From the NCBI GenBank assembly GCA_036387335.1, contig DASVTZ010000238.1, positions 1 to 48,214 of the forward strand: a DNA stretch of 48,214 nt, read 5' to 3'. Under the pieces are notes generated by a model that saw nothing but the letters and a program-made list of their open reading frames with translations, was not told the origin of the DNA and searched no databases. The DNA is from Longimicrobium sp. (GTDB taxonomy: Bacteria; Gemmatimonadota; Gemmatimonadetes; Longimicrobiales; Longimicrobiaceae). This document shows positions 25,577 through 39,819 of this stretch, piece after piece. The first letter of the stretch is position 1. The number at the start of each line of letters is the position of its first letter. A program made the position numbers and the translations under genes.

Positions 25577-25592
25577 TACGAATGCGTTCGTA
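25577..25592 (-). promoter_or_regulatory. BlaI-type operator, beta-lactamase-proximal
   Basis: TACGAATGCGTTCGTA, 26 bases before the bla start, has 6-base arms TACGAA/TTCGTA. It lies just downstream of the inferred start of transcription. Use by the neighbouring BlaI-like protein is inferred. Confidence 0.6.
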
Positions 25593-25608: not shown

Positions 25609-25635
25609 AGTATACGATTCGATTCGTAGATGCAA
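25609..25635 (-). promoter_or_regulatory. Putative bla promoter overlapped by the second operator
   Basis: On the minus strand TTGCAT (25635-25630) and TATACT (25614-25609) are spaced by 15 bases. The palindrome TACGATTCGATTCGTA (25613-25628) fills the spacer. The short spacer makes the promoter weak without help. Confidence 0.5.
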
Positions 25636-25683: not shown

Positions 25684-25710
25684 TTGACTCCACGAACCTC
25701 ATCGTATTAG
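25684..25710 (+). promoter_or_regulatory. Putative promoter of the BlaI-like/M56 pair
   Basis: TTGACT (25684-25689) and TATTAG (25705-25710) are spaced by 15 bases, 52 bases before the repressor ATG. A partial TCGTA half-site overlaps the -10. Confidence 0.35.
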
Positions 25711-25761
25711 AGTACCGGCAGCGGCTCCGATACGGGCCGATGCACCCGCTCCCCGATCGAC

Positions 25762-26151
25762 ATGCCACGCCGGGACCTTCCGCTGCCCACCGAAGGCGAG
25801 CTCCGCATCCTGCGCGTGCTGTGGGATCGCGGCGCGAGCACCGTGCGCCAGGTGCTCGACGCGCTCCCCGGCGACGACACGGGCTACACGACGGTGCTCA
25901 AGCTCCTGCAGATCATGTACACGAAAGGGCTGGTGATCCGCGACGAGCGGGAGCGCACGCACGTGTACGCCGCCGCCGTCCCGCCTGAGACGACGCAGCG
26001 GCAGCTCCTGGCCGACTTCACCGAGAAGGCGTTCGGCGGCTCCGCGCTGGGGCTGGTGATGCACGCGCTCTCGCCCGAGGTCGCGTCGCCCGCGGAGCTG
26101 GAGGAAATCCGGCGGATGGTGGCGCGGCTCCCGGCCCCGGAGGGCGAGTGA
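25762..26151 (+). CDS. BlaI/MecI/CopY-family repressor (bla-linked)
   Basis: This 129-residue winged-helix repressor is typical in length. The N-terminal DNA-binding part reads LPTEGELRILRVLWDRGAS, TVRQVLDAL and GYTTVLKLLQIMYTKGLVIR, with the wing RTHVYAAAV; the C-terminal helix bundle (QRQLLADFTEKAFGGSAL) makes the dimer. In BlaI proteins cleavage in the C-terminal part releases the operator when the sensor is activated by a beta-lactam. It overlaps the M56 sensor gene by four bases (GTGA at 26148) and diverges from the beta-lactamase, an arrangement expected for a bla regulon. The palindromes in the gap are its likely binding sites. A second, similar pair is at 35842-37730. Confidence 0.92.
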   Translation: MPRRDLPLPTEGELRILRVLWDRGASTVRQVLDALPGDDTGYTTVLKLLQIMYTKGLVIRDERERTHVYAAAVPPETTQRQLLADFTEKAFGGSALGLVMHALSPEVASPAELEEIRRMVARLPAPEGE

Positions 26152-28217
26152 GCGCGGCGGCGCACGTCGTGGGGTGGGCGCTCGTCCACTTCGTCTGGCA
26201 GGGCGCGCTGATCGCGCTCGCCTTCGCGGGGGTGAACCGTGCCGCGCGCCGCTCCGCGCCGTCGATTCGCTACTGGGCCGCATGCGCCGCGCTGGCGCTG
26301 ATGATGGCCGCGCCGCTCGCGACCGGTGCCTGGATCGCCGGCGCCGCCCGGGCTATACCTGCGGAGGCGGCGAAGCTGTCGGGCGAAGGGTGGCGCACGA
26401 TGCCGCTCGCGGAGGCGGAAGCGCGTCCCGCGGATGCGGCGGAGGAGGCGGCGACGCTCGCGCCTGCCCGCCTGGCGCGGCGCACCTCCATCGCCATCGA
26501 GCCGCTGGTGCCGGGACTGGCGGTGGGATGGGCGGTCGGCGTGCTCCTCCTCTCGCTGCGCCTGCTGGGCGGATGGCTGTGGGTGCGGCGGCTGGCGCGG
26601 CGCGGTCTCCTGCCGGTGCCCGCGGAGTGGAGCGCGGTGCTGGCCCGGCTGCGCGCGCAGCTCAGGATCCGGCGTCCCGTCGGCCTCTGGATCTCGCCGC
26701 ACGTGGGCGGGCCGGCGCTGATCGGCTGGCTGCGCCCTGTGATCCTGCTTCCGCTCAGCGCATCGAGCGGGCTCACTCCGCGCCAGGTGGAGCTCATCCT
26801 GCTGCACGAGCTGGCGCACGTGCAGCGCTGGGATTACGCCGTGAACCTCGCGCAGCGGCTCGCGGAGACGCTCCTCTTCTACCATCCCGGCGTGTGGTGG
26901 ATCTCCGCGCGCATCCGCGAGGAGCGCGAGCACTGCTGCGACGACGCGGTGGTGGCGCGGGCCAGCGTGCGCGACTACGTCCTGGCGCTGCTCGCCATGG
27001 AGGAGGCGCGCCGCCCCGTGCCCGCGCTGGCGCTGGGCGCCGGAGGTGCATCGCTCGTGGCGCGCGTGAGGCGCCTGACCAACCCCGCGCGCCGCACCGA
27101 TACCGCCGGACGGACGCCCGTCGCGCTCGCGGCGGCGGCGGCTCTGCTCGCGCTGGCGGCGGCGCGCCCTTCGCCCGCCCCTGGCCATGCGCCGTCACCG
27201 CTCCCGGGTCTATGCGGCGCGGATGCGGCGCCGGCCGGGCTGACGCTGTGCGCGGGGCTGGGCCGCGAGGCGGCGGGGCTGCTGCGCGGCACCGGGCACG
27301 CGGGCGCCGTCATCGTGCAGGACGTGGCGACCGGCGCGGTCCTCGTTTCGACGCAGTCCGATTCGGTGGACGTCACGCAGGCCGCGCTCCCGGCATCGTT
27401 GTGGAAGCTGGCCATCGCCGCCGCGTGGTGGGATCGCGGCTGGCCGAGCGAGGATATGGAGTGTCCGGCTGCGGCGACAGTGGCGGGGCGCCGCATCTCC
27501 AACCCGGGACGGGCTCCCGGCGTGCGCATTCGCGTGCCGGAGGAGATGCTCGTCTACTCGTGCAACACGGCGGCGGTGGAGATGGCGCTGCGGCTGAGCC
27601 GCGACGGGGGGACGGATCGGCTCGCGGCGCAGCTCGGGCGCATGGGCTTCCCCGTGGCGGGCCCGGACGCGCGGGAGGCGGCGGACCCGTCGTTCTGGGC
27701 GAGCACGTCCCCCAGCTTCCGCCGCGCGATGGCCCCGCTGGCGGCGACCGTCCACGTCGGCGGCGCGGCGACGATGGCGGATCTGGCGCTGGGCAAGGAA
27801 GCCGCGCGTGTCACCCCGCTCCACTTCTCGCGCTTCTTGCAGGCGATGGGCAACGGCGGCGTCATGCGCGCGCCGACCATCGAGGCCGCGCTCGCCGGGA
27901 GCGGCGCTTCGGTGCGGGTGATGCAGCCCTCGACCGCCGCCAGGCTGCAGCGCGCCATGCTGCGCACGGTCGAGGCGGGGACGGCGCGGGCGGCGGCGGG
28001 CACGCAGCCCGGTGCCTGGCGCCTCGGCGGCAAGACCGGCACGACCGCCTCCCCTCGCGGCGTGCAGGGCGACGGGTGGTTCGCGGGGCTCGTCTTCGAC
28101 CCCGCGGGCCGGGCGCGCTACACCGTGCTCACCTACCTTCGCCAGGGCGGCCCCGGCGGTGAAGCCCCCACGCGCCTCGCCGCCGAGGTCGCGAAGCGCG
28201 CGATCCCCGGCGAGTAG
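26148..28217 (+). CDS. BlaR1-type M56 sensor peptidase fused to a penicillin-binding transpeptidase domain
   Basis: A 689-residue protein. The N-terminal half is an M56 integral-membrane metallopeptidase with helices AAHVVGWALVHFVWQGALIA, VGWAVGVLLLSLRLLGGWLW and the zinc site H220-E-L-A-H224, then EREHCCDDAVV. From about residue 385 a periplasmic PBP-like domain follows, with S417-L-W-K420, S471-C-N473 and the K629-T-G box. In BlaR1 the sensor is usually class D-like; here the domain looks like a transpeptidase family (GKTGTT). It should bind beta-lactams covalently at Ser417 and signal the peptidase to cleave the coupled repressor. It starts in the GTGA overlap. The enzymatic activity of the sensor is unknown; all three motifs are intact, so it may be active. 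Confidence 0.87.
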   Translation: MSAAAHVVGWALVHFVWQGALIALAFAGVNRAARRSAPSIRYWAACAALALMMAAPLATGAWIAGAARAIPAEAAKLSGEGWRTMPLAEAEARPADAAEEAATLAPARLARRTSIAIEPLVPGLAVGWAVGVLLLSLRLLGGWLWVRRLARRGLLPVPAEWSAVLARLRAQLRIRRPVGLWISPHVGGPALIGWLRPVILLPLSASSGLTPRQVELILLHELAHVQRWDYAVNLAQRLAETLLFYHPGVWWISARIREEREHCCDDAVVARASVRDYVLALLAMEEARRPVPALALGAGGASLVARVRRLTNPARRTDTAGRTPVALAAAAALLALAAARPSPAPGHAPSPLPGLCGADAAPAGLTLCAGLGREAAGLLRGTGHAGAVIVQDVATGAVLVSTQSDSVDVTQAALPASLWKLAIAAAWWDRGWPSEDMECPAAATVAGRRISNPGRAPGVRIRVPEEMLVYSCNTAAVEMALRLSRDGGTDRLAAQLGRMGFPVAGPDAREAADPSFWASTSPSFRRAMAPLAATVHVGGAATMADLALGKEAARVTPLHFSRFLQAMGNGGVMRAPTIEAALAGSGASVRVMQPSTAARLQRAMLRTVEAGTARAAAGTQPGAWRLGGKTGTTASPRGVQGDGWFAGLVFDPAGRARYTVLTYLRQGGPGGEAPTRLAAEVAKRAIPGE

Positions 28218-28228
28218 CGTCCGTGGGG

Positions 28229-28765
28229 CTACTCGATCACCCGGACCGAATTCATGATCCGCTCGCCGATCGCACCCCACTCCTTCTCGAGCTCCCGAGT
28301 CACGTTGAAGCTCACCAGAAGGAATCGGCCCTGAACGGAGGTGCCCACCATGATGTTGCGTGTCTCCGTGTCCAGCGCCGGGGCCCAGAAGTCAAGCAGG
28401 AAGTAGCTTCGCCCCTCCCGCTCGAAGAGCTCGCTCCGGTTCCAGCGAGCGGTGGGGTAGGTGGCCTTGAGCTGCCCCTCCATCGCCGGGTAAGCCAGCC
28501 GGATCTGCGCCGGGGTGATGGCGTCCTGCGTATGTCCGAACGCGATGTTGATCGTCGCGGGCTCGTTGCTCAGCACCTCGGTCGGCCGCCCGGCCTGGCG
28601 GTACTTGATGTCCATGATCTCCGGCTTCAGCGGAGCGAAGTCGGCAGGCACGAGGAGCGAGACTTTGCCCCCGAGCGCGGTTCGCTGTACCAGCCTCGCG
28701 GAGTCCTGTGCCTGCGCGACAGAGACGGTGAGGCTGAGGAGGCAGGCGAGTAGTAGGGTTTTCAT
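28229..28765 (-). CDS. Secreted hypothetical protein (PsbP/DUF1795-like)
   Basis: A 178-residue protein from ATG 28765 with a signal peptide (MKTLLLACLLSLTVSVAQAQ). The mature part has alternating strands (VSLLVPADFAPLKPE, SYFLLDFWAPALD, FLLVSFNVTRELE) and a final helix (WGAIGERIMNSVRVIE), which resembles small PsbP/DUF1795-type proteins. There is no catalytic motif. The stop lies 11 bases past the M56 gene stop in the convergent orientation, so the two genes end nearly together. Function is unknown. Confidence 0.7.
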   Translation of the reverse strand: MKTLLLACLLSLTVSVAQAQDSARLVQRTALGGKVSLLVPADFAPLKPEIMDIKYRQAGRPTEVLSNEPATINIAFGHTQDAITPAQIRLAYPAMEGQLKATYPTARWNRSELFEREGRSYFLLDFWAPALDTETRNIMVGTSVQGRFLLVSFNVTRELEKEWGAIGERIMNSVRVIE

Positions 28766-28935
28766 GTGGGCTAATCGGAGCGGGGAAACCGTGGTGCCCA
28801 TCTGGACCGGCGTGCGTAAGGTAGGCGCGTCATCGTCCAAGTTCCAGCGTGGCGGAACCTGGCGCCTGCCACGACTCGGCTCTCCAGCGCTGGGAGTGCC
28901 GAGGGGGCTCGCCATCACCCACCGTCATCCTGCCT

Positions 28936-29124
28936 CGCCGGCTAGATCCTTCGGTCGCCGCAGGAGTGCGGAGTGCGCGTAGAGGTCGGGGTGGCGGCTC
29001 CCTCAGGATGACAGAAAGTCTGATCGACACTCGGCCAAACATTCCTGTCATCCTGAGCGAAGCGCCCCCCAGATCTCGCCACGACACCGCACTCTGGCGC
29101 GAAGCGAAGGATCTACTGCGCGTG
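28936..29124. repeat. Family B inverted repeat, copy 1
   Basis: The left arm (28936-29013) starts CGCCGGCTAGATCCTTCGGT and ends CCTCAGGATGACA. The right arm (29046-29124) starts TGTCATCCTGAGCGAAGCGC and ends GGATCTACTGCGCGTG. The arms are imperfect inverted copies of each other. A second copy with the arms in the opposite order is at 33170-33362. Confidence 0.8.
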
Positions 29125-29230
29125 CCCAGGCGCTCGGGCCTCAGGCAAGGTCTACGCGTGAGGCTTGCTGTACCGCGAATCCGCCGCAAAACTGGGGGAG
29201 GACCAGCGTACCACTTGCGACGGGCGACCG

Positions 29231-29734
29231 ATGAGCGAGACGGAGATCAGGATCAGGCGGGCTGAGCCGGGGGACGCGGCGGAGATCCACGAGATCTTTA
29301 CGAACCCGCGCGCGGTGTGGGGGACGATGCAGATCCCGTTTCCCAGCCTGGAGGAGTGGAAGGGACGGCTGGAGCGGCCGCCGGAGGGGGCGTACAACCT
29401 CGTGGCGGTCGTGGATGGAAAGGTGGTCGGGATGCTGGGGCTGCACGGCAACCCGTCGAAGCCGCGCCGGCGCCACGCGGCTTCGATCGGGATGACGGTG
29501 CACGACGCGTGGGCGGGGCGTGGGGTCGGGACCGCTCTCATGGCCGCCGCCGTGGACCTCGCGGACAACTGGCTGAACGTGCGCCGCATCGAGCTCAGCG
29601 TCTACGTCGACAACGAGCCGGCGATCCGCCTCTACCGAAAGTTCGGCTTCGAGGTGGAGGGCACCGCCGTCGGCTACGGCTTCCGCGGCGGCGAGTACGT
29701 CGATGCCCACATGATGGCCCGCCTGCGGCCGTAG
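29231..29734 (+). CDS. GNAT-family N-acetyltransferase
   Basis: A 167-residue protein from ATG 29231, a normal single GNAT domain. It opens IRIRRAEPGDAAEIHEIFTN. It has the acetyl-CoA loop GRGVGTALM at about residue 98 and the final block ELSVYVDNEPAIRLYRKFGF. The pattern with DNEPAIRLYRK resembles the YhhY-type amino-acid acetyltransferases. The substrate is not readable. It stands alone between repeats and an ADOP gene on the opposite strand; its stop (29734) lies five bases from the end of that gene, so the two converge. Confidence 0.88.
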   Translation: MSETEIRIRRAEPGDAAEIHEIFTNPRAVWGTMQIPFPSLEEWKGRLERPPEGAYNLVAVVDGKVVGMLGLHGNPSKPRRRHAASIGMTVHDAWAGRGVGTALMAAAVDLADNWLNVRRIELSVYVDNEPAIRLYRKFGFEVEGTAVGYGFRGGEYVDAHMMARLRP

Positions 29735-29738
29735 GCGA

Positions 29739-32393
29739 TTACCGCTCGCAGCGCAGCGCCCCCGCGGGATCGATGCGGCTGGCGCGGCGCGCGGGGAGCC
29801 AGGCGGAGGTGATGGCGACGGCCACGAGAAGGGTGGGGACGAGCGCGAAGACGACGGGGTCCTGCGCCTCGGTGCCCACCAGCAGCGACCGCAGCACCCC
29901 CGCCAGCGCGAACGCCGCCACCAGCCCCAGCACCGCGCCCGCCGTCGCCACCGCCGCGCCCTCGGCGGCGATCTGGCGGACGACGCGGCCGCGGCTCGCG
30001 CCGAGCGCCATCCGCACGCCGATCTCGCCGGTGCGCTGCTCCACGCCGTACGACAGCACGCCGTAGATCCCCACCGCCGCCAGGCAGAGCGCCGCGCAGG
30101 CGAAGAGGGCCAGGAGCGCCGCGTTGAAGCGCGGCTCGGCCACGGCGTCGCCGAGCAGCTCGTCCAGCGTCTGCACGCGCTCCACGGGGAGGTCGCGGTC
30201 CACGCGCCACACGCGCTCGCGCAGGATGCGGGCGATTGCGGCCGGGTCGCCGTCCGCGCGCACGGCCATCCACATGTCGTTCATGGGGAACTGCGCCTGC
30301 GGATAGTACGTCGCCGGATCGGCGGGCCGGCCCACGCCGCGGAACGGCTCGTCGGCCACCACGCCCACGATGCGGAAGTGCGTCGGCTGCCCCGGCCACC
30401 ACATCTGGCCGCGGTTGATGGTCTGGCCTACCGCGTCGCCATCGGGGAAGTGCTCGCGCACGAACGCCTCGTTCACCACCACGGAGCCGGGCGTGCCGAA
30501 GCGGTCCGCATCGGAGACGTCGGTGCCGCGCACCAGGGGGAGCCCCACGGTGCGGAAGTAGCCGGGTGACACGGGGCGGATGCGCGACTCCGGCCACATC
30601 CCCACCGGCGGCTCCGGGCGCCCCACGAGCGAGAAGCTGGAGGTCCACCCCTCGCTCACCGGGTGCTCGAAGGTGAACGACACCGAGCGCACCCCCGGGG
30701 CCGCCGCGACCTCGCGCCGCAGCCGGTCGAAGAAGTCGAGCACCTTGGCCGGATCGGAGTAGCGCCCCTGCGGAAGCTGGAGCTGCACGAATGTCACGCC
30801 ATCGGGCCGTAGCGGGAGGCGGGCGCGCTCGAGCTGCCACAGGTTCTTCACCAGGAGCGCCGCGCCGATGGCCAGCACCGTCGCGAGCGCCACCTCCGCC
30901 ACCACCAGCCCCTGCCGCATGCGGCGCCGGCGGCGGCCGGCGGTGGCGCCGCGCCCGCCCTCGCGCAGCGCGCCCAGCGAAACACTTGCATCGCGGTACT
31001 GGAGCGCCGGCAGCGCGCCGAAGCCGATCGCGGCCACCGCCATCACGCCGATCAGAAAGGCGGCGACGGGCTGGTCGAGCGCGATCTCGCCGGCGCGCGG
31101 GATGGCGGTGGGGACGAAGGCGACGAGGGTGCGCATCCCCGCCCACGCCACCGCCAGCGCCGCCGCGCCGCCGCCCAGCGCGAGGAGGAAGCTCTCCGCG
31201 ACCCACTGGCGGGTGAGCCGCGCGCGCCCGGCGCCGAGCGCGGCCCGCACCGCCATCTCCCGCTCGCGCGACTGGGCGCGGGCCATGAAGAGGCTCGCCA
31301 GGTTCGCGCAGCCGATCAGCAGCACCAGCAGCACCGCGCCGAACAGCGTCAGCAGCGCCGGCCGCGCATCGGCGACGATCGCCTCGCGCAGGGGGATGAC
31401 CGCGGCGCCGCGCTTGGCGTTCTCGGATGGGTACTGCTCCTCCAGCCGCTTCGCCACGGCCGATGCTTCCCGCGCCGCGCGCTCGATGGAGACGCCCGGC
31501 CGCAGCCGTCCGACCAGGGTGAAGCGGTGCGTGGCGCGCGACTCCTCCGCCGGGCCGGGAACGAGCGGCAGCCAGATCTCCGTCTCCGGCGTGAGCCGCG
31601 CCTCGTCCGGCAGCACGCCGACGACGGTGGCGGGCGCGCCGTCCAGCGTTATGCGGCTGCCGAGCACGGACGGCGATCCGCCGTAGCGGCGCTGCCAGAG
31701 GGCGTGCGTGATCATCACCACGGGTTCCGCGCCAGGGCGCTCGTCGCCCGCCAGGAAGGGGCGGCCGAGCACGGGGCGCATCCCCAGCGCGGGGAAGGCG
31801 CTCGCCGTCACGAGCTGCGCGCCGATCCGCGCCGGCCGCGCGCCGGGCGCGGTGAGGGTGACGTCCTCGCCGCGCACGGCCGCCAGCTGCTCGAAGCCGC
31901 GGAGCTGGGCGCGCATGTCGCGGTAGTCCGCGTACGACGACGACTGCGAGACCGCCTCCGGGTCGCCCCCCGTGGCGCGGCCCTGGATGGCGACCAGCCG
32001 CTCGGGCTGCGAGAAGGGGAGCGGCCTCAGCAGCACGCCGTTTACGAGCGAGAAGACCGCCGCCGCGGCGCCGGCGCCCAGGGCAAGAGTCAGCACCACC
32101 ACCGCAACGAAGCCGGGGCGGCGGCGCAGCGAGCGCGCGGCGTACCGCAGGTCGAAGCCGATCATGCCGGTCGCTCCGTGTCTGCGCCACAGCCAGAGCG
32201 CGTCGGACGACGCCCCCAGCGCGCGCCAGTGAAGCCGCGCGCGTGCCGCGGAAAGGTTCTGGCTGCTTCGTTCGGCGCGCCGCCACGCATACGCCAGCTC
32301 GCCCTCCCACTCCGCCAGCCATGCGTCGCGCAGGTGGCGCGGCACCAGCGAGCGGACGGCGCGCACCAGCGCGAACCCCGGAGGCCGGGGCAT
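29739..32393 (-). CDS. ADOP/MacB-type ABC transporter permease (884 residues)
   Basis: The N-terminal 85 or so residues (MPRPPGFALVRAVRSLVPRH...) are the helical extension typical of Acidobacterial duplicated orphan permeases. From about residue 78 a MacB-like first helix appears (MIGFDLRYAARSLRRRPGFV), then a periplasmic MacB_PCD domain with ARIGAQLVTASAFPALGM, then two FtsX domains with helices LLTLFGAVLLVLLIGCANLA and GALPALQYRDASV. The duplicated half ends PARRASRIDPAGALR. Such permeases act as ABC exporters, but no ATPase gene is adjacent. The start ATG (32393-32391) shares one base with the stop of the PadR-like regulator gene upstream. The length is normal for the group. Confidence 0.92.
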   Translation of the reverse strand: MPRPPGFALVRAVRSLVPRHLRDAWLAEWEGELAYAWRRAERSSQNLSAARARLHWRALGASSDALWLWRRHGATGMIGFDLRYAARSLRRRPGFVAVVVLTLALGAGAAAAVFSLVNGVLLRPLPFSQPERLVAIQGRATGGDPEAVSQSSSYADYRDMRAQLRGFEQLAAVRGEDVTLTAPGARPARIGAQLVTASAFPALGMRPVLGRPFLAGDERPGAEPVVMITHALWQRRYGGSPSVLGSRITLDGAPATVVGVLPDEARLTPETEIWLPLVPGPAEESRATHRFTLVGRLRPGVSIERAAREASAVAKRLEEQYPSENAKRGAAVIPLREAIVADARPALLTLFGAVLLVLLIGCANLASLFMARAQSREREMAVRAALGAGRARLTRQWVAESFLLALGGGAAALAVAWAGMRTLVAFVPTAIPRAGEIALDQPVAAFLIGVMAVAAIGFGALPALQYRDASVSLGALREGGRGATAGRRRRRMRQGLVVAEVALATVLAIGAALLVKNLWQLERARLPLRPDGVTFVQLQLPQGRYSDPAKVLDFFDRLRREVAAAPGVRSVSFTFEHPVSEGWTSSFSLVGRPEPPVGMWPESRIRPVSPGYFRTVGLPLVRGTDVSDADRFGTPGSVVVNEAFVREHFPDGDAVGQTINRGQMWWPGQPTHFRIVGVVADEPFRGVGRPADPATYYPQAQFPMNDMWMAVRADGDPAAIARILRERVWRVDRDLPVERVQTLDELLGDAVAEPRFNAALLALFACAALCLAAVGIYGVLSYGVEQRTGEIGVRMALGASRGRVVRQIAAEGAAVATAGAVLGLVAAFALAGVLRSLLVGTEAQDPVVFALVPTLLVAVAITSAWLPARRASRIDPAGALRCER

Positions 32394-32710
32394 CAGGCCG
32401 GCCTCGGCCGCAGACCGCCGGGCACCGCGGTGCCGCGCGCCTCCGGATACTTCGCCAGCGCCTCGCGCAGCGTGCCCGCGCCCGTCCCCGTGAGCTCGTA
32501 GTAGCGCCGCGGCGGGCGCCCTTCTTCGCGCGCGCGCTCCACGTCCTCCCACTCCGACCTCACGCACCCGGCGTCCTCCAGCCGGCGCAGGATCGGGTAC
32601 ACGGTCCCGCTCTCCAGCCCCGTGGCGTCCAGGATGTCGAAGCCGTGCCGGAACCCTCGCGAGAGGGCCAGCAGGACGGTGGCGGTGGGGCGGGTGAGGC
32701 GTAATGGCAT
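32393..32710 (-). CDS. PadR-family transcriptional regulator
   Basis: A protein of 105 residues with the winged helix of the PadR group: TATVLLALSRGFRHGFDILDA-type helices, then GTVYPILRRLEDAGCV, and the wing RPPRRYYELTGTGAGTLREA. It is coupled to the permease gene by one shared base (TGATG at 32395-32391). PadR proteins with permease genes usually repress them until a toxic compound binds. The downstream permease is the likely target. The upstream 32711-33428 region is repeat-filled. Confidence 0.9.
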   Translation of the reverse strand: MPLRLTRPTATVLLALSRGFRHGFDILDATGLESGTVYPILRRLEDAGCVRSEWEDVERAREEGRPPRRYYELTGTGAGTLREALAKYPEARGTAVPGGLRPRPA

Positions 32711-32734
32711 GGAAGTGCGTGAGTGTGTGAGTGC

Positions 32735-33135
32735 GTGTGGCCCCCTCCCCCCGGCCCCCTCCCCCGCCTGCGGGGGCGCAGGGCGGGTGAGGGGGAGAAC
32801 TCCCCGCTCGCCGCGCAGATCCCGTAGGGGCGCGATTCATCGACGATGAATCGCGCCCGTGCCCGACCCTGCTCCACCGCCTGCGATCCGTGGGGCAGAC
32901 CTGCGTTTCGCCGGATGCGCCGCACGCGACGCCGCACCACCGACTGCCATCCGCCCCGTTCGCGGCGGCCTATGTTTGGCACCGGACGGCCCGCGCGTGA
33001 CCGCGCCACCCCGCCATCCGCAACGCATCCGTAGGGGCAGACCTGCGTGTCTGCCCGCCCTCGCCGCGACACCGACCTACGCCCCGCCGCACAGATCCTG
33101 TAGGGGCCGCCCCATGTGGCTGCCCGTGCCCGCCG
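32735..33135. repeat. Repeat-rich tract with family C GTAGGGGC units
   Basis: It begins with a C-rich/G-rich fold (32735-32805). Then four units follow the pattern GATCCxGTRGGGGC, centred near 32826, 32895, 33034 and 33102. Two fold well: GGGCGCGATTCATCG pairs with CGATGAATCGCGCCC at 32828-32858, and GGGCAGAC pairs with GTCTGCCC at 33035-33056. No gene is seen. Confidence 0.7.
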
Positions 33136-33169
33136 GATCGCCGTAGCCCGCATCCGGGAGCGAGCCTTT

Positions 33170-33362
33170 TGTCATCCTGAGCGACGCGCTGCTCCGCCCT
33201 TTCCCGTGCGCCATACTTTGGCGCGGGGCGAAGGATCTACTGCGCGTGACGGGGGGCTCGTGTTTACCTGCCGTCCTCGTGCTTCGCCGGCTAGATCCTT
33301 CGGTCGCCGCCAGGAGGGTGGAGTGCGGCCGTTGTTGGTGGGGCGGCTCCCTCAGGATGACA
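33170..33362. repeat. Family B inverted repeat, copy 2
   Basis: Left arm 33170-33248 runs TGTCATCCTGAGCGACGCGC ... GGATCTACTGCGCGTG. Right arm 33285-33362 runs CGCCGGCTAGATCCTTCGGT ... CTCAGGATGACA. It is the same element as 28936-29124, with the arms swapped in order. Confidence 0.8.
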
Positions 33363-33428
33363 AAATCGTATCTCTACATAGGTAGAGATAGGCGACGAAG
33401 TCAAGGGTTGTATTATCGGCGACCCGGT

Positions 33429-33989
33429 TTACCTGCGGGTGACGCGGGTGAGCCAGGCGGAGAATCGCCAGGTGGCGTGCAGGGCGGCGCCCAGCCAGCG
33501 GCGGTCCGGGGCGGCGGGGAGAGGCTGGTCGGAACCGAGGTGGTCGGGCGAGATCTGGGCGAAGATGAAGTTCTCGGATTCCACGGGGGAGCCGGCCAGG
33601 CGGCGCAGAATCGCGATCTGGCCGGCGTGCGTCATCGCGTCGCTGAAGGGGCCCTGGAGAAGCTGCTCCATCGAGATGTCGCGCAGCGGCGTGCCGGCGG
33701 CGAGGTGCGCGGCCACGTCGGCCACCATCGCGTGGAACTTCTCCACCTCGACGGCGAGGCTCTCCACCTCATCCGGCCCGTACAGGCCGCCGATGAAGTA
33801 CGTGCGCGAGTAGCCGATCACCCCGCGCATGTGGCGCACGAGATCGCGCGGCGTGCGCGTGCCGGCGCCGGCGGAGAAGTCCCCGAAACCCTCGGGCGCG
33901 CCGCGAAGGGCCTTCTGCGTGCGGTACGCGAGGGCGGCGAGGAAGTGGCGGAGCATCTCGCGCTTTACGGCGTCGCTTTCCGTGGGCAT
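33429..33989 (-). CDS. DinB-superfamily protein
   Basis: A 186-residue protein from ATG 33989. The helical DinB-like pattern is seen with LVRHMRGVIGYSRTYFIGGL, a mid helix DEVESLAVEVEKFHAMVADV and a THAGQIAILRRLAG block that usually carries the third histidine of the metal site. The protein is a likely metal-binding four-helix bundle such as thiol S-transferases (DinB/BstA group), but the exact reaction is unknown. A TTG start at 34016 would add nine residues and is less likely. The gene is divergent from the DUF1835-like gene. Confidence 0.82.
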   Translation of the reverse strand: MPTESDAVKREMLRHFLAALAYRTQKALRGAPEGFGDFSAGAGTRTPRDLVRHMRGVIGYSRTYFIGGLYGPDEVESLAVEVEKFHAMVADVAAHLAAGTPLRDISMEQLLQGPFSDAMTHAGQIAILRRLAGSPVESENFIFAQISPDHLGSDQPLPAAPDRRWLGAALHATWRFSAWLTRVTRR

Positions 33990-34098
33990 GTTGGGGATGG
34001 TAGGTGTGCCGATCAATCGCCAGCCGCAACATGCGCGCGGCGGGGATGCGCGGGCAACGATCTTCTTCGCGGGTCAGGAAGCCTTCATCCGAGAAACC

Positions 34099-35100
34099 AT
34101 GTCCGCACAGACTCCAGCGCCCCGCATCCTCCACGTGCACAACGGCGACGTCGTGCGCGACAAGCTGGCGGGCTCCGGCGTGCCGGGCGACCACGCCGTG
34201 TATGCGGACGCGCTCCACGATGGCCCGCTCTTCCCCATCGACACACCCGCGGAGCAGCGTCGGGCAGCGCGCGCGGCGTTCGGCGCGGAGGCGGGGTGGG
34301 CGAGCGAGCGCGACATCCTGGAAACCCTCGCGCGCTGGGACCGGGAGCTGGAGCGCTGGGCGGAGTACGACGAGGTGGTGCTCTGGTTCGAGCACGACCT
34401 CTTCGACCAGCTCCTCCTGGCGCGGCACCTGGCCTGGTTCGCCCAACAGCCGCCCGCGGGCACGGTGCTCAGCCTCATCTGCATCGGGGAGTACCCCGGG
34501 ATGCCGGCGTTCAAGGGGCTCGGCGAGCTCTCGCCTCACCAGCTCGCGTCGCTGCTGGGCTCGCGCCAGCGCATCACCCAGCGCCAGCTCGAGCTGGGCC
34601 GCCGAACCTGGGATGCGCTGGTGGCCGAGGACCCCGCCGCCGTGGAGGCGCTCGTGGCGGAGGAGGATCTCACATCGCTCCCCTTCCTGCGCCCCTCGCT
34701 GCGCCGCTTCCTGGAAGAGCTTCCCGACCTGGAGAGCGGGCTGGGGCGGATCGAGCGCGCCGTGCTGGAGGGGGTGCGCGACGGGACGACGGACCCGGTG
34801 CGCCTCTTCCACGCCGTCCACGATGCGGACGACGTCTTCTTCATCGGCGACACCTCTTTGTGGCACAGCATCCGGACGATGGCTGCCGGTCCGCATCCGC
34901 TCCTCGCCCTCGCGCCGCGCTCCGGTGACGGCCTCGCCCCCTTTGGTGCGCTCTCGCTCACCGATGCGGGCCGCGACGTGCTCGATGGAAGGGCCGACCG
35001 CATCCGGCTCGCGGGGATCGACCGCTGGTGGGGCGGGGTGCACCTGCACGGCAACGAGGTCCCCTGGCGCTGGGATCGCCGGGCCCAGCGCGTCGTTTGA
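34099..35100 (+). CDS. DUF1835-domain protein
   Basis: A protein of 333 residues from ATG 34099. The first 60 residues read ILHVHNGDVVRDKLAGSGVP and DHAVYADALHDGPLF, the N-terminal pattern of DUF1835 proteins. A block EVVLWFEHDLFDQLLLARH follows with conserved acidic residues, then helices around ITQRQLELGRRTWDALVAED. The C-terminal part (LSLTDAGRDVLDGRADRIRL and WWGGVHLHGNEV) resembles the end of this family. No signal peptide is present. The role of the family is not known. A family A repeat follows 45 bases after the stop. Confidence 0.85.
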   Translation: MSAQTPAPRILHVHNGDVVRDKLAGSGVPGDHAVYADALHDGPLFPIDTPAEQRRAARAAFGAEAGWASERDILETLARWDRELERWAEYDEVVLWFEHDLFDQLLLARHLAWFAQQPPAGTVLSLICIGEYPGMPAFKGLGELSPHQLASLLGSRQRITQRQLELGRRTWDALVAEDPAAVEALVAEEDLTSLPFLRPSLRRFLEELPDLESGLGRIERAVLEGVRDGTTDPVRLFHAVHDADDVFFIGDTSLWHSIRTMAAGPHPLLALAPRSGDGLAPFGALSLTDAGRDVLDGRADRIRLAGIDRWWGGVHLHGNEVPWRWDRRAQRVV

Positions 35101-35144
35101 CTCCTGCTCACCCCAATCGCCCCGCGTCGATTCGGTACGGATAT

Positions 35145-35272
35145 CTCACGCGGAGGCGCGGAGACGCAGAGAGAACTGCAACTGCATGGCTCACACAGAG
35201 ACACAGAGGCACAGAGAGAACAACAAAAGGTTTCTCTGTGGCTTGCAGTTCCCTCTGTGCCCTCCGTGTGAT
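35145..35272. repeat. Family A palindromic repeat, copy 3
   Basis: It starts CTCACGCGGAGGCGCGGAGA and contains CTCACACAGAGACACAGAGG in the middle. The right side has TTTCTCTGTGGCTTGCAGTT and ends CTCCGTGTGATG. The outer right arm is shortened relative to copy 1. Confidence 0.8.
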
Positions 35273-35290
35273 GCTTTTCGTTTGTCAGGG

Positions 35291-35770
35291 ATGACAATGA
35301 GAGAGATCCACAGGCTCCACGCGCTGCCCACTGATGCACTTGGCCCGCTGGTGGCGGCGAGCGCCGGGGAGGGATTCCTCTTCCTGGAGCGGCTGCGACG
35401 CGAGTGGCTGGAGGACAAGAAGCGGTTCGACGGGCCGGGCGAGGTGCTCCTGGGCGCATACCAGGGACCCGCGCTCGTCGCGATTGGCGGGGTGACGGTC
35501 GATCCATACGATGACGATCCCGCGGTGGGACGACTGCGGCACCTGTACGTTGCGCCCGAGGCGCGGCGGCAGGGCACGGGCGCGTCGCTGGTGCGCGCGC
35601 TCGAGGATGCCGCGCGCCCGCACTTCCGCACCCTGACGCTGCGGACGGACACCCAGGAGGCGGCGCGGTTCTACGAAGCCCTCGGCTACACGCGCCTGCC
35701 GCCCGGCGGAACGGCCACGCACCGCCGGGAGCTCGCGAGCTCCATCGTGCAGGAGAGAGAAGATCCTTGA
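35291..35770 (+). CDS. GNAT-family N-acetyltransferase
   Basis: A protein of 159 residues from ATG 35291 (ATG 35297 is also in frame). It has the N-terminal helices FLFLERLRREWLEDKKRFDG and the acetyl-CoA pocket LRHLYVAPEARRQGTGASLV, with a later TDTQEAARFYEALGYTRL block. This is a usual GNAT of 150-160 residues. Specificity is not readable. The gene begins about 20 bases after a family A repeat, so its promoter must lie inside or right next to it. The next gene (BlaI-like) follows with its own promoter. Confidence 0.88.
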   Translation: MTMREIHRLHALPTDALGPLVAASAGEGFLFLERLRREWLEDKKRFDGPGEVLLGAYQGPALVAIGGVTVDPYDDDPAVGRLRHLYVAPEARRQGTGASLVRALEDAARPHFRTLTLRTDTQEAARFYEALGYTRLPPGGTATHRRELASSIVQEREDP

Positions 35771-35821
35771 CGCGCCGCAATGCTGGTGCTACGATCGTAG
35801 CATGATGCTGCAATCGTAGCA
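35767..35821 (+). promoter_or_regulatory. Promoter and double operator of the second BlaI/M56 pair
   Basis: TTGACG (35767-35772) and TACGAT (35790-35795) are 17 bases apart, a good -35/-10 pair. The perfect palindrome TGCTACGATCGTAGCA (35787-35802) overlaps the -10. An imperfect copy, TGCTGCAATCGTAGCA (35806-35821), follows. This resembles the BlaI/MecI TACTACA-type operator arrangement. Confidence 0.75.
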
Positions 35822-35841
35822 CCCCCTGGCCGGAGCGCCGC

Positions 35842-36225
35842 ATGACCCTGCCCTCGGAACTGCTCCTAACCGCGCGCGAGCGTCAGATCATGGACGTGGT
35901 GTACCGGCGCAAGCGGGCGACCGCCGCGGAGATCCAGGCGGAGCTTCCCGATCCGCCGGGATACTCCGCCGTGCGCGCCATGCTCGCCAAGCTCACCCGA
36001 AAGGGCCACCTGCGCAGCGAGTACGACGGCCCGCGCTACGTGTTCCTCCCCACCGTGCCGCGCGACGAGGCGCAGCAGGGGGCGCTCGGACGGCTGGTGA
36101 GCACCTTCTTTGGCGGGTCGCCGGTACGCGCGGCGGCGGCGCTGCTGGAATCCGCGGAGTTGTCCGCCGAGGAGCTGGCGGAGCTGGAGGAGCTGCTCAG
36201 GAACGCGCGCGGAGGAAAGGGATGA
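35842..36225 (+). CDS. BlaI/MecI/CopY-family repressor (second pair)
   Basis: A repressor of 127 residues from ATG 35842. The winged-helix part reads LTARERQIMDVVYRRKRATA, AEIQAEL and YSAVRAMLAKLTRKGHLRSE, with the wing GPRYVFLPTVPRDEAQ. The C-terminal dimer helix ends in a Leu/Glu-rich stretch (SAEELAELEELLRNARGG). It overlaps the M56 gene by four bases (ATGA, 36222-36225). A perfect 16-base palindrome overlaps its own promoter, so it almost certainly represses itself and the sensor gene. It is related to the repressor at 25762, but its operator has a different centre spacing. Confidence 0.93.
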   Translation: MTLPSELLLTARERQIMDVVYRRKRATAAEIQAELPDPPGYSAVRAMLAKLTRKGHLRSEYDGPRYVFLPTVPRDEAQQGALGRLVSTFFGGSPVRAAAALLESAELSAEELAELEELLRNARGGKG

Positions 36226-37730
36226 TGCCCGGCGCGGATGCGGTCGTCGCGGTGCTGGCGGGGATGGCGTGGCGGGCGGCGCTCCTGCTGGCCGTCGCGG
36301 CGGGCGTGGACCGGGCGTTGCGCGGCGAATCCGCGGCCACGCGCCACCGGCTGTGGACCGGGGCCGTCTGCGGCGTGCTCCTACTCGTGCCGCTTTCCCT
36401 GCTGCCACCGCTCTGGCGGATTCCGATCCCCACCATCGCGGCGAGTAGCGCGGTGCTTCCGGCGCGGGTGGACTCCGGTGGTTTCGCGCCCGGCTTACCC
36501 GCTGGGTCCGTCCCGCACGACGACGCGCTTCCGTCCGCGGCGGTGCTGCTGGCGGCGCTGTGGGCGGCGGGGGCGCTGGCGGTGCTCACGAGGCTGGGGG
36601 TGGGTGTGGGCCGGCTCTGGTGGATCGGCGCGCGTGCGCCGAGGCTGCTGGACGCGCGCATGGCCGAGCTCGCCCGCCGCTCGGCCGCGGAGGTGGGGAT
36701 CGGGCGGGAGGTGCGCGTGAAGATGGGCGTGGCGGGCTCCGTTCCGGTCACCTGGGGAACATGGAGGCCCACCGTGCTCCTTCCCGGCGATGCGGCACAG
36801 TGGCCGGAGGAGCGGCTCCGCGCCGTCCTTTTGCACGAGATGGCGCACGCGCGCCGGGGCGACTGCGCGGCGCAGTGGGCGGCCGCTGCCGTCTGCGCGC
36901 TGCACTGGTTCAACCCGCTCGCCTGGCACGCCGCCGCGCGCATGCGGCTTGAGGCCGAGCACGCCGCCGACGATGCAGCCCTCGCCCGCACCCCCGCCGC
37001 CGACTACGCGCGGCACCTGCTGCAGGTGGCCGCATCGCTCCACCGCGCCGATACCCGCGCCGCCGCGGCGATGGCGCGCCCGACGCAGCTCCGCCGCCGC
37101 ATCGAGGCCGTGCTCGACCCGCGCCGCCCGCGCGGCGGCGTCGCGCGCTGGGCGTCTGGTGCGGGGTGCATCACGGGCGCCGCGCTCCTGCTGGCGCTGG
37201 GATCCGTGGGCACCACGAGCGCGCATCCCGCCGATGCGTGGATCGCGGGCGACACCGCCGCGCCGGCCGACTTCGCTCGCCGCTACGGTGTGACGCTGGC
37301 GGTCGCAACGGACATCCGGCAGGCGGCGCTGGCGGAGGGGATCGATCCCGAGCTCGCCTTCCGCGTGGTGCGCGCGGAGAGCGGCTTCCGCGAACCGACG
37401 CCCGCGGGCGAGCAGGGGGTGGGCCTGGCGCGCATCCTCCCCTCCACCGCGCGCTCGCTGCAGCCGGGTGTGACCCGCGCCGAGCTGCGCGACCGCGGCA
37501 CCAACCTGCGCCTCGCCTTCCGCTACCTTCGCGCCGCCATCCGCGAGCACCCGTCCGACCTGCCGGCCGCGCTCGGGATCTACCTGCGCGGCCCGCGCGG
37601 CCCCACCCGCTGGGATGCGCCGTACGCCCGCGAGGTGCTGGGCGCGCGTCCGGGGGCGCCCGCCTATCGACGCGCGCCAGAGACGCAGAAGAAAAAAATC
37701 GCCTCACACAGAGCCACAGAGGGGTACTGA
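36222..37730 (+). CDS. M56 membrane peptidase fused to an SLT lytic transglycosylase domain
   Basis: A 502-residue protein. The N-terminal 330 residues are BlaR1/M56-like: membrane helices, then the zinc site H205-E-M-A-H209 and a downstream EAEHAADDAALART block. After a transmembrane segment (CITGAALLLALGS, about 315) a periplasmic domain follows with AALAEGIDPELAFRVVRAES and Glu386, the catalytic Glu of SLT-type lytic transglycosylases, then a GLARILPSTARSL block. The cell-wall enzyme thus replaces the usual beta-lactam sensor. It could sense or cleave peptidoglycan. The final 17 or so residues (APETQKKKIASHRATEGY) are encoded by repeat A copy 4, so the original end may be altered. It starts at ATG 36222 with a GGAGGAAAGG ribosome site. 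Confidence 0.85.
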   Translation: MMPGADAVVAVLAGMAWRAALLLAVAAGVDRALRGESAATRHRLWTGAVCGVLLLVPLSLLPPLWRIPIPTIAASSAVLPARVDSGGFAPGLPAGSVPHDDALPSAAVLLAALWAAGALAVLTRLGVGVGRLWWIGARAPRLLDARMAELARRSAAEVGIGREVRVKMGVAGSVPVTWGTWRPTVLLPGDAAQWPEERLRAVLLHEMAHARRGDCAAQWAAAAVCALHWFNPLAWHAAARMRLEAEHAADDAALARTPAADYARHLLQVAASLHRADTRAAAAMARPTQLRRRIEAVLDPRRPRGGVARWASGAGCITGAALLLALGSVGTTSAHPADAWIAGDTAAPADFARRYGVTLAVATDIRQAALAEGIDPELAFRVVRAESGFREPTPAGEQGVGLARILPSTARSLQPGVTRAELRDRGTNLRLAFRYLRAAIREHPSDLPAALGIYLRGPRGPTRWDAPYAREVLGARPGAPAYRRAPETQKKKIASHRATEGY

Positions 37731-37800
37731 AAGAACAACGAAGACCAGTTTCTCTGTGATCTTGCCTTTCTCTCTGTGTCTCTGTGTGAGGCTTGTCTCT
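37677..37800. repeat. Family A palindromic repeat, copy 4 (overlaps a gene end)
   Basis: It contains CCTCACACAGAGCCACAGAG and the right arm TCTCTGTGTGAGGCTTGTCT. The left outer arm is degenerate (AGAGACGCAGAAG). It encodes the last residues of the M56-SLT protein. It is most similar to copy 5. Confidence 0.75.
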
Positions 37801-37896
37801 CCACCTTCGCCCTGTACGAAACATTTCGTATTATCGAACGGGGCACGGGCTCGTTGTGCGCCTCCGCCTCTCCAGCATCGTCATCGAAAGGGACCT

Positions 37897-39819
37897 ATGC
37901 CCGCTATCCGCCACATCATCCAGGTTACGAGCGTCTTCGTCGGCCTGGGCGCGCTCGCGATTCCTGGTGTGCACGGTCAGGCACCCGACGCGCCCACCGC
38001 ATCCTGCGTGAGCCCGCAGCCTGCCGGGGAGCCGCGCCACTACATCTTCTTCAACCGCGCCCGAGGCCGCATCCGCGATTCCGCGTTCCTGGCGAACCCG
38101 GGAATCGAGGGGGCGCAGGTGAAGTACACGTGGGCGGAGCTGGAGCCGGAAAAGGATCGCTACGACTTCAGCGCCATCCGCGAAGACCAGGCGTTCCTCG
38201 CCGCGCGCGGGAAGCGGCTGTTCGTGCAGTTGCAGGACGTGTCGTTCGACTCGTCCATCGTGAACGTGCCGCGCTACCTGATGACGGAGCCGGAGTTCAA
38301 CGGCGGCGCCACCCGCGACTACCACCAGCCCCGGGACGACGAGGCGCAGGCGGTCCCGGCGGGGTGGGTCGCGCGGCGGTGGGACCCGGCGGTGCAGGCG
38401 AGGATGCACAGGCTGTTCGCCGCGCTCGGCGCCCAGCTCGACGGCAGGATCGCCGGGATCAACCTGCCGGAGACGTCGGTGGGGTTCGGCACCAGCGGCC
38501 GGCTGTGGCCGCGGGGGTACACGCCGGAGCGCTACCGCGACGCCGTGATCGAGAACATGCGCGCGCTGAAGCGTGCGTTTCCCGTATCGGTCGCCATGCA
38601 GTACGGCAACTTCATGCCGGCGGAATGGCTGCCGGGGAACGACAGGGGTTATCTGCGCAGCGTGTACGCGGCGGCGCGGGTGAGCGGGGTGGCGATGGGC
38701 GGGCCGGATCTCTTTCCGTACCAGCGCGGGCACATGAACCACAACTACCCGCTCATCCGCGCCCATCACGGCGCCGCCCCCACCGGGATCGCGGTGCAGG
38801 AGGGGAACTACGGCGTGATCAATCCGCGTACCGGAAAGCCGCCCGCCGTCGTGGAGCTGATCGAGTTCGCGCGCGACTATCTCTGCGTCGACTACGTCTT
38901 CTGGTTCGCCGAGGAGCCGTACTACTCGCGAGACGTCTTCCCCACGCTGCGCCGCAGGGTGCAGGAATCGCCGCGCTTCTTCGCTCCGGGCGTGGTGACG
39001 ATACCGGAGGCGACCACGTACCGCCCCACCTTTTCGCCGGACGGGCGCACCGCGATCTATTCGATGGAGGTGAGCGGCGGGTACGTGCTGGTGGAGACGC
39101 GGATGCGCGGCGGGCGCTGGGACGCACCCGAGGTGCTCCCGTTCTCGGGCCGCTACTCGGACGCGGAGGGGGTGCTGTCGCCGGACGGGACGCGCTTCGT
39201 CTTCGCATCACAGCGCCCGCGAGAGGGTACAGCGCCGCGAACCGACTACGACCTGTGGGAGGTGACGCGCGACCCCGGCGGCCGCTGGGGGACGCCGCGC
39301 CTGATGGAGGGCCTCGCCACGCCGGGGCACGAGCTGTATCCTTCGCTCACGCGCGACGGCACGCTCTACTTCACCCGCAGCAGCCCCGACGGCTCGGACC
39401 TGTGGCGCGCGGCCGCGGGGTACGCCGCACCGGAACCCGTCCGCGAGCTGAACACCGACCGGCGCGAGAGCGGCGGGTTCGTGGATGCGGAGGGCACCGT
39501 GCTCCTCTTCGGATCGAACCGCGAGGGGACGCTCGGCGGGCTCGACCTCTTCGTGAGCTGCCGTGAGGGCGGCGCCTGGGGAGCCGCGCGACCGCTTCCC
39601 GCGCCCATCAACTCCGCCGACCAGGAGAACTCCCCCACCCTCTCGCCGGACGGGAAGACGCTGTACTTCACCAGCAACCGCCGCTCCCCGGACGCCGCCC
39701 GCCTCGGCGACGGCGCGCGCTACGGCGACCTCCTCCGCCGCCTGCGCGAGCCCGGCAACGGCCTGTGGCACACCTACCAGATCGCCACGCCCGCGCTGTG
39801 CCGGCGGCCGGCGCCGTGA
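37897..39819 (+). CDS. Secreted glycosidase-like barrel plus PD40 beta-propeller protein
   Basis: The protein has 640 residues from ATG 37897. It starts with a signal peptide (MPAIRHIIQVTSVFVGLGAL...). The N-terminal 340 residues resemble a (beta/alpha)8 glycoside hydrolase: VKYTWAELEPEKDRYDFSAI, then KRLFVQLQDVSFD, INLPETSVGFG (a likely acid/base Glu) and VFWFAEEPYYSRD (a candidate second Glu). From about residue 350 a TolB/PD40-like propeller follows, with repeated blocks of the type TFSPDGRTAIYS, VLSPDGTRFVFASQ and TLSPDGKTLYFTSN. It is likely periplasmic or outer-surface and binds or cleaves a glycan. The gene sits between two closely related family A repeats (copies 4 and 5). No gene symbol fits. 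The glycosidase part is less certain than the propeller. Confidence 0.8.
   Translation: MPAIRHIIQVTSVFVGLGALAIPGVHGQAPDAPTASCVSPQPAGEPRHYIFFNRARGRIRDSAFLANPGIEGAQVKYTWAELEPEKDRYDFSAIREDQAFLAARGKRLFVQLQDVSFDSSIVNVPRYLMTEPEFNGGATRDYHQPRDDEAQAVPAGWVARRWDPAVQARMHRLFAALGAQLDGRIAGINLPETSVGFGTSGRLWPRGYTPERYRDAVIENMRALKRAFPVSVAMQYGNFMPAEWLPGNDRGYLRSVYAAARVSGVAMGGPDLFPYQRGHMNHNYPLIRAHHGAAPTGIAVQEGNYGVINPRTGKPPAVVELIEFARDYLCVDYVFWFAEEPYYSRDVFPTLRRRVQESPRFFAPGVVTIPEATTYRPTFSPDGRTAIYSMEVSGGYVLVETRMRGGRWDAPEVLPFSGRYSDAEGVLSPDGTRFVFASQRPREGTAPRTDYDLWEVTRDPGGRWGTPRLMEGLATPGHELYPSLTRDGTLYFTRSSPDGSDLWRAAAGYAAPEPVRELNTDRRESGGFVDAEGTVLLFGSNREGTLGGLDLFVSCREGGAWGAARPLPAPINSADQENSPTLSPDGKTLYFTSNRRSPDAARLGDGARYGDLLRRLREPGNGLWHTYQIATPALCRRPAP

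Follow-up and report, generated by a model that had tools for sequence, protein, structure and literature searches.

What does a BlaI-coupled membrane protease read when its sensor domain is a cell-wall enzyme? The question is raised by a 48,214-nucleotide stretch of Longimicrobium sp. DNA (the window; contig C238 of a 5.82-Mb genome in 265 contigs), in which two repressor genes of the BlaI/MecI type are each followed by a gene for an M56 metalloprotease. The first protease ends in a penicillin-binding protein (PBP) transpeptidase domain (M56-PBP, system 1) and the second in an SLT-type lytic transglycosylase domain (M56-SLT, system 2). A sequence-only reading had proposed that both sensors report the state of peptidoglycan itself, with lactam binding or glycan cleavage as input. 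We consider it probable that both loci are autoregulated proteolytic switches of the BlaI–BlaR1 type whose sensor domains were captured from wall enzymes of the bacterial family, system 1 being drug-related and system 2 glycan-related. Architecture, zinc and active-site residues, synteny and operator positions were taken from the sequence and from structural models; DNA binding, ligand, acylation, direction of signalling and BlaI cleavage are what we infer.

Both pairs lie where the sequence-only reading had placed them, and the products of all four reading frames score above the Pfam cut-offs (Table 1). In each pair the start of the sensor gene overlaps the stop of the repressor gene by 4 bp. 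The zinc site is complete in both proteases, with HELAH 220–224 and E261xxxD265 in M56-PBP and HEMAH 205–209 and E246xxxD250 in M56-SLT, and the Asp five residues past the second His is kept (D229 and D214). Both sites match the H201ExxH and E242xxxD zinc motifs of BlaR1 (PMC9834060). Below, G000 denotes the genome of the window, and G132, G133, G134, G135, G137 and G367 are comparison genomes.

Table 1. Features of the two BlaI–M56 systems, in window coordinates
Feature	Position	Strand	Evidence and remarks
Class A β-lactamase gene	24627-25550	-	Divergent from blaI1; NF033103 bla_class_A, PF13354
Predicted BlaI1 operator 1, TACGAATGCGTTCGTA	25577-25592		Exact site; kept in G134 amid diverged flanks
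Predicted BlaI1 operator 2, TACGATTCGATTCGTA	25613-25628		1 mismatch; kept in G134 as TACGATTCAGTTCGTA
σ70-like promoter of blaI1, TTGACT-18-TAGAGT	25684-25713	+	1 found versus 0.1 in shuffles; consensus match only
Imperfect third operator in blaI1 promoter, ACGAACCTCATCGTA	25692-25706		Same place in G134 and G135
blaI1, BlaI/MecI-type repressor	25762-26151	+	PF03965 4.1e-21 (Pfam)
M56-PBP sensor, BlaR1-like, 689 aa	26148-28217	+	ORF, Pfam, AlphaFold model
M56 metalloprotease domain of M56-PBP, aa 18-292	26199-27023	+	Peptidase_M56 8e-30; HELAH 26805-26819
Class B PBP transpeptidase sensor domain, aa 386-683	27303-28196	+	PF00905 1.2e-22, above curated cut-off
σ70-like promoter upstream of blaI2, TTGACG-17-TACGAT	35767-35795	+	1 found versus 0.0 in shuffles; consensus match only; -10 overlaps operator
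Predicted BlaI2 operator 1, TGCTACGATCGTAGCA	35787-35802		Perfect palindrome; G000 and G134 each have its 12-bp core a single time, at this site
Predicted BlaI2 operator 2, TGCTGCAATCGTAGCA	35806-35821		19 bp away from operator 1; kept in G134
blaI2, BlaI/MecI-type repressor	35842-36225	+	PF03965 3.3e-26 (Pfam)
M56-SLT sensor, 502 aa	36222-37730	+	ORF, Pfam, AlphaFold model
M56 metalloprotease domain of M56-SLT, aa 29-296	36306-37109	+	Peptidase_M56 2e-31; HEMAH 36834-36848
SLT/GH23 domain, aa 365-464	37314-37613	+	PF01464 1.2e-8, above curated cut-off; E386 at 37377-37379
Second exact predicted BlaI1 operator, TACGAAACATTTCGTA	37815-37830		Ends 66 bp before ATG of the 37897 gene
Predicted BlaI1-regulated gene, secreted protein with PD40 propeller repeats	37897-39819	+	PF07676 1.9e-24; just behind M56-SLT

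The active-site letters given for the end of M56-PBP are confirmed, S417-LW-K420 (SLWK, 27396–27407), S471-C-N473 (SCN, 27558–27566) and K629-TG (KTG, 28032–28040), and the transpeptidase call is borne out by the PF00905 match and by the fold. In the AlphaFold model (mean pLDDT 86.7), residues 358–689 match class B PBPs in penicillin-acylated form (Z 35.9 over 297 aa, rmsd 2.5), and the fold and family matches listed for the sensor part are all class B PBPs (Z 33.6–35.9); no OXA or BlaR1 sensor is among the fold matches listed, which leaves room for some resemblance. BlaR sensors likewise have a polar residue at the SxN position, and SxN/SCN alone does not discriminate (PMC9045261). The nearest stand-alone relatives of the fused domain are PBPs of about 525 aa, one of which is found in almost every genome of the bacterial family, at 38–45% identity; in a tree the fused domains group together, in a clade that excludes these stand-alone proteins. 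The idea that the call reflects the usual BlaR1 sensor matching PF00905 was rejected on this identity and on the listed folds. Against the full-length model NF000326 (blaR1_generic), M56-PBP reaches 78 bits, from the M56 part only, where the cut-off is 400. SxxK, SCN and KTGT are intact in all five M56-PBP homologues, and comparison with G134 gives dN/dS values of 0.16 for the PBP part and 0.03 for blaI1.

The sequence-only reading had included neither the divergent β-lactamase gene nor operators. The product of this gene scores 215 bits against NF033103 (cut-off 200) and 9.8e-42 against PF13354, and the motifs SVTK, SDN, ELSPN and KTG can be read in it. The gap of 211 bp that separates it from blaI1 holds BlaI1 operators 1 and 2 and the imperfect copy in the blaI1 promoter. 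The exact form of the site, TACGAAN4TTCGTA, occurs twice in the 5.8-Mb genome, against about 0.03 occurrences expected from the base composition of the window. The second occurrence precedes the propeller-protein gene. The PD40 repeats of that protein are C-terminal and its N-terminal part, which has no Pfam match, looks by eye like a TIM-barrel glycoside hydrolase; in G134 only the C-terminal part of the counterpart is kept and the operator is absent.

Over ten genomes of the genus we found seven exact sites, against none for the reversed controls, and the genomes with a site are exactly the five that have a full-length M56-PBP. A class A β-lactamase gene adjoins the operators in three of these five. 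They include G000 and G134, which has the whole region in the same gene order (identities of 98–99% for BlaI, 91–93% for M56-PBP, 89% for M56-SLT and 82% for the β-lactamase). The third is G135, where the site lies between a class A β-lactamase gene and blaI; its sensor is only about 47% identical to that of the window and its β-lactamase 54%, still above the class A cut-off. In a fourth, G137, the sole exact site lies 21 bp before a gene for a subclass B3 metallo-β-lactamase (L184 593–1480, contig C164; 336 bits, cut-off 240), on another contig than the sensor. In G137 no β-lactamase gene lies beside M56-PBP, and the blaI1 promoter there has neither an exact nor a relaxed site. G132 has M56-PBP and two sites, one before blaI and one before the gene for a DUF5916 protein (L176 2551–5280), and no β-lactamase under an exact site. 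A DUF5916 protein is also encoded directly behind the class A β-lactamase of G135 (L175 1638–4352). We read the TACGAAN4TTCGTA sites and the genes downstream of them as the putative BlaI1 regulon, on predicted DNA binding.

The same motif stands in G367 (L177 5380–5395) before a BlaI gene whose M56 partner has a HEAT-repeat tail. Because this HEAT-tailed pair and the PBP-tailed systems share an operator, the operator code follows the BlaI clade and not β-lactams as such, and M56 tails have been swapped among members of a single operator clade.

System 1 is best read as a β-lactam switch of the BlaR1 type whose sensor is a copy of a PBP target rather than an OXA-like domain. The divergent class A gene and the shared operators mark it as a β-lactamase regulator, a resistance gene linked by a shared predicted operator being what is expected of a BlaR1/MecR1-type transducer. 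The β-lactamase regulon strongly suggests a lactam input, as the sequence-only reading had it, and argues for a β-lactam switch and against the other half of that proposal, a reader of peptidoglycan state. In the mechanism we propose, BlaI1 would repress its own operon, the divergent β-lactamase gene and the propeller-protein gene through TACGAAN4TTCGTA. A β-lactam would acylate the class B PBP domain at S417, the domain being a copy of the drug target that acts as a decoy. Acylated M56-PBP would then, by analogy with BlaR1 (PMC9834060), have an active M56 protease, BlaI1 would be removed and β-lactamase would be made.

System 2 likewise pairs an M56 protease that has its zinc site with an adjacent BlaI gene and predicted operators, as in BlaR1/MecR1-type transducers. 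The AlphaFold model of M56-SLT (pLDDT 82.4) matches BlaR1 (Z 19.8, 250 aa) and, in addition, lytic transglycosylases of the GH23 type (Z 11–12). Neither Pfam nor fold comparison gives a penicillin-binding sensor domain in this protein, and the SLT domain stands in its place. The SLT call is borne out by the PF01464 match and the GH23 fold, and Glu386 is present as stated; with the class B PBP domain of system 1 this supports the view that the sensor domains of BlaI-coupled proteins can be of wall-enzyme type and need not be class D-like.

We found full-length M56-SLT in 4 of 394 genomes of the class, scoring the three best candidates per genome, and all four belong to this genus (G000, G134, G132 and G133). 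That the SLT call arose by chance was rejected, as the same architecture recurs in these genomes at 35–89% identity. At each of the four loci a BlaI gene lies just upstream and tandem palindromes overlap a TTGAC-17-TA promoter; the operators are of two types, CTACGATCGTAG in G000 and G134 and CTACANNTGTAG in G132 and G133. At the stringency used, such sites occur nowhere else in their own genomes, so the predicted direct target of BlaI2 is its own operon. A search of G000 with two mismatches allowed gave 19 sites versus 14 in the control, which is noise, and the exact core is found solely at the promoter of the operon itself. Upstream of the remaining 13 BlaI genes, a crude palindrome scan gave two weak candidates only. 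Judged from these sequences, system 2 is real, probably autoregulated and restricted to the genus.

In G134 a polysaccharide deacetylase gene (PF01522, 66 bits; L088 4791–5699, contig C63) overlaps the stop codon of M56-SLT and is apparently the third gene of the operon. As a conserved output of the operon it was rejected, since searches of five other genomes of the genus gave no match. Peptidoglycan deacetylases can confer lysozyme resistance, and given that role the G134 gene offers no more than a hint. M56-SLT of G000 reads with its last ~17 residues into a dispersed intergenic repeat (cacagagacacagag-like) found at 37680–37790 and at about 35150–35300 of the window, and the G134 protein stops earlier.

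The catalytic motifs of the SLT domain bear on what it does. E386, S387 and Y454 are invariant in the four fused domains. The Asn of the AYN motif is lost in all four (IYL or AYY; IYLRG at 37578–37592 of the window instead of AYNxG), and the Gln of GLxQ is lost in two (GLAR in G000, at 37422–37433, and in G134; GLTQ is kept in G132 and G133), counts that represent only one or two independent events. Each genome of this bacterial family has several stand-alone SLT proteins, and in the stand-alone relatives compared, both residues are kept in 27 of 27. In Slt70 the GLMQ segment is needed for the architecture of the site and AYNxG contacts the substrate (PMC550655). The SLT part is under purifying selection (dN/dS 0.26). 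The lost residues point to altered or weakened catalysis, which fits a binding role, inactivity being no certainty; measured against the 27 relatives they suggest a sensor that binds glycan or has weak activity.

For this "active-looking" domain the sequence-only reading had proposed glycan cleavage as input: the domain would be a working lytic transglycosylase that cuts glycan close by, and the cutting or what it releases would be the signal. We regard this as unlikely. The invariant Glu, Ser and Tyr, the GLTQ of G132 and G133 and the fold match to lytic transglycosylases speak for it, and the retained Tyr would permit residual activity. The degenerate motifs, which that reading had passed over, argue the other way, as the residues lost here and kept throughout the stand-alone relatives belong to the segments that shape the site and contact the substrate in Slt70.

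The origin of the fused domain bears on a second alternative. Trees place the M56 domains of the two M56-SLT lineages far from each other, in distant clades, and the topology test rejects a common clade (delta lnL 109, p-AU 2e-44); their BlaI partners are likewise separate (p-AU 8e-5, from few columns and a quick tree). The four fused SLT domains form one clade (96/86, with rather long branches), and the SLT domains of each M56-SLT pair, taken alone, join the same group of stand-alone SLT proteins. A single origin of M56-SLT by descent was rejected, as neither the M56 nor the BlaI parts form one clade. Since the SLT parts are one clade while the M56 and BlaI parts are separate, the SLT head appears either to have been captured twice from the same stand-alone subgroup or to have been captured once and then moved by a chassis swap.

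Both scenarios put SLT domains of the same subgroup on two unrelated M56 chassis, which argues against a part that is only a structural cap or an anchor to the sacculus, carrying no ligand information while the signal enters elsewhere. Retention of E386, Y454 and the TNLRL region weighs in the same direction. In most M56 proteins of the class the tail is non-enzymatic, made of HEAT repeats or of other domains, so that a tail need not sense a ligand, and we found no target gene beyond the operon itself. We hold such a cap or anchor to be unlikely.

With moderate confidence, glycan binding is the most likely reading of the SLT domain of system 2. BlaI2 would repress mainly its own operon, the SLT domain would most likely bind, on the outer side of the membrane, glycan strands or else something that cuts the wall or is released by cutting it, and the M56 protease would be gated by whether the domain is occupied. 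System 2 may in this way sense peptidoglycan or a wall-degrading challenge. A bolder proposal is that M56-SLT represents a new class of BlaR1-like receptor, in which a disarmed lytic transglycosylase reads glycan strands or attack on them by lysozyme or lytic enzymes and steers BlaI. Because the SLT head sits on two BlaI–M56 chassis, any wall enzyme might become a sensor head, with the PBP of system 1 as a parallel. We put this forward tentatively, as possible and still doubtful.

Wall-enzyme tails are found against a background of many M56 proteins. G000 has 15 M56 matches and 15 BlaI-type matches, a large paralogous set with exchangeable C-terminal tails (HEAT repeats, DUF4097 and others); one BlaI gene (contig C241, L029) has no M56 match on its own contig. 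In a sample of 75 M56 C-termini, taken mostly from one class, HEAT repeats dominate (28), some tails are TonB, DUF4097 or Plug domains, and two are transpeptidases (the window protein and that of G135), so wall-enzyme tails are rare. A scan of genome contigs with M56 peptides gave 23 M56 relatives, none of which had such an SLT or PBP domain by BLAST (0/23), and plasmid searches gave no record covering 80%; neither result is a measure of architecture in other phyla. In the open-access literature we found no report of M56 fused with either an SLT domain or that of a class B PBP. A gene for a MacB/FtsX-type permease (29739–32840), beside one for a PadR-like regulator (32393–32710, minus strand), lies in the part of the window that separates the BlaI systems.

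System 1 shares with BlaI–BlaR1 and MecI–MecR1 of S. aureus and B. licheniformis a repressor gene beside an N-terminal M56 gluzincin (HExxH and ExxxD), an extracytoplasmic C-terminal domain of the penicillin type, palindromic operators and a divergent β-lactamase gene. It differs in its sensor, which in BlaR1 is OXA/class D-like (PMC9045261) and here, by the matches listed, is a class B PBP domain. We found one precedent for a PBP as β-lactam sensor, PbpP of the PbpP–RsiP–SigP system of Bacillus thuringiensis, in which a genuine PBP likewise serves β-lactamase induction (PMC8092216). PbpP is a separate protein that acts on an anti-sigma factor via an unknown site-1 protease (PMC8092216), whereas system 1 has its PBP and its protease in a single chain and acts through a BlaI repressor. 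That M56-PBP is instead a working transpeptidase reporting its substrate (stem peptide or lipid II-linked chains), with precursor shortage as the native signal and β-lactamase as one output, is improbable, for its intact catalytic motifs and the propeller and DUF5916 targets, not obviously drug resistance, are outweighed by operators at β-lactamase genes in four of the five genomes and by BlaR1, a switch built alike in which acylation is how the drug is sensed (PMC9834060).

In system 2 the sensor is an SLT domain, which no BlaR1 in the literature we found carries. With the family 1 (GH23) lytic transglycosylases Slt70, MltE and MltC it has in common the fold, the catalytic Glu-Ser, the GLxx segment and the Tyr of AYN; unlike them it is fused to M56 and has lost the residues described above. 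The lysozyme receptor RsiV–SigV of B. subtilis is also a switch in the membrane that works by proteolysis and signals an attack that degrades the wall, as proposed for system 2; there RsiV takes lysozyme as its direct ligand and releases a sigma factor, whereas in system 2 an enzyme-like domain would control a repressor (PMC4183432). The BlaI–BlaR homologue of M. tuberculosis is an M56–BlaI pair too, but it has no sensor domain (PMC9834060).

Together the two systems suggest for the BlaR1 protease the role of a general chassis, onto which a drug target, the class B PBP, can be fitted as an alarm for its own inhibitor, and onto which a glycan-handling enzyme also fits. They predict β-lactamase induction circuits in an environmental lineage, including one for a class B3 metallo-enzyme, that searches by an OXA-like sensor would miss. 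System 2 would offer a directly testable case for the reading of glycan-strand status across the membrane.
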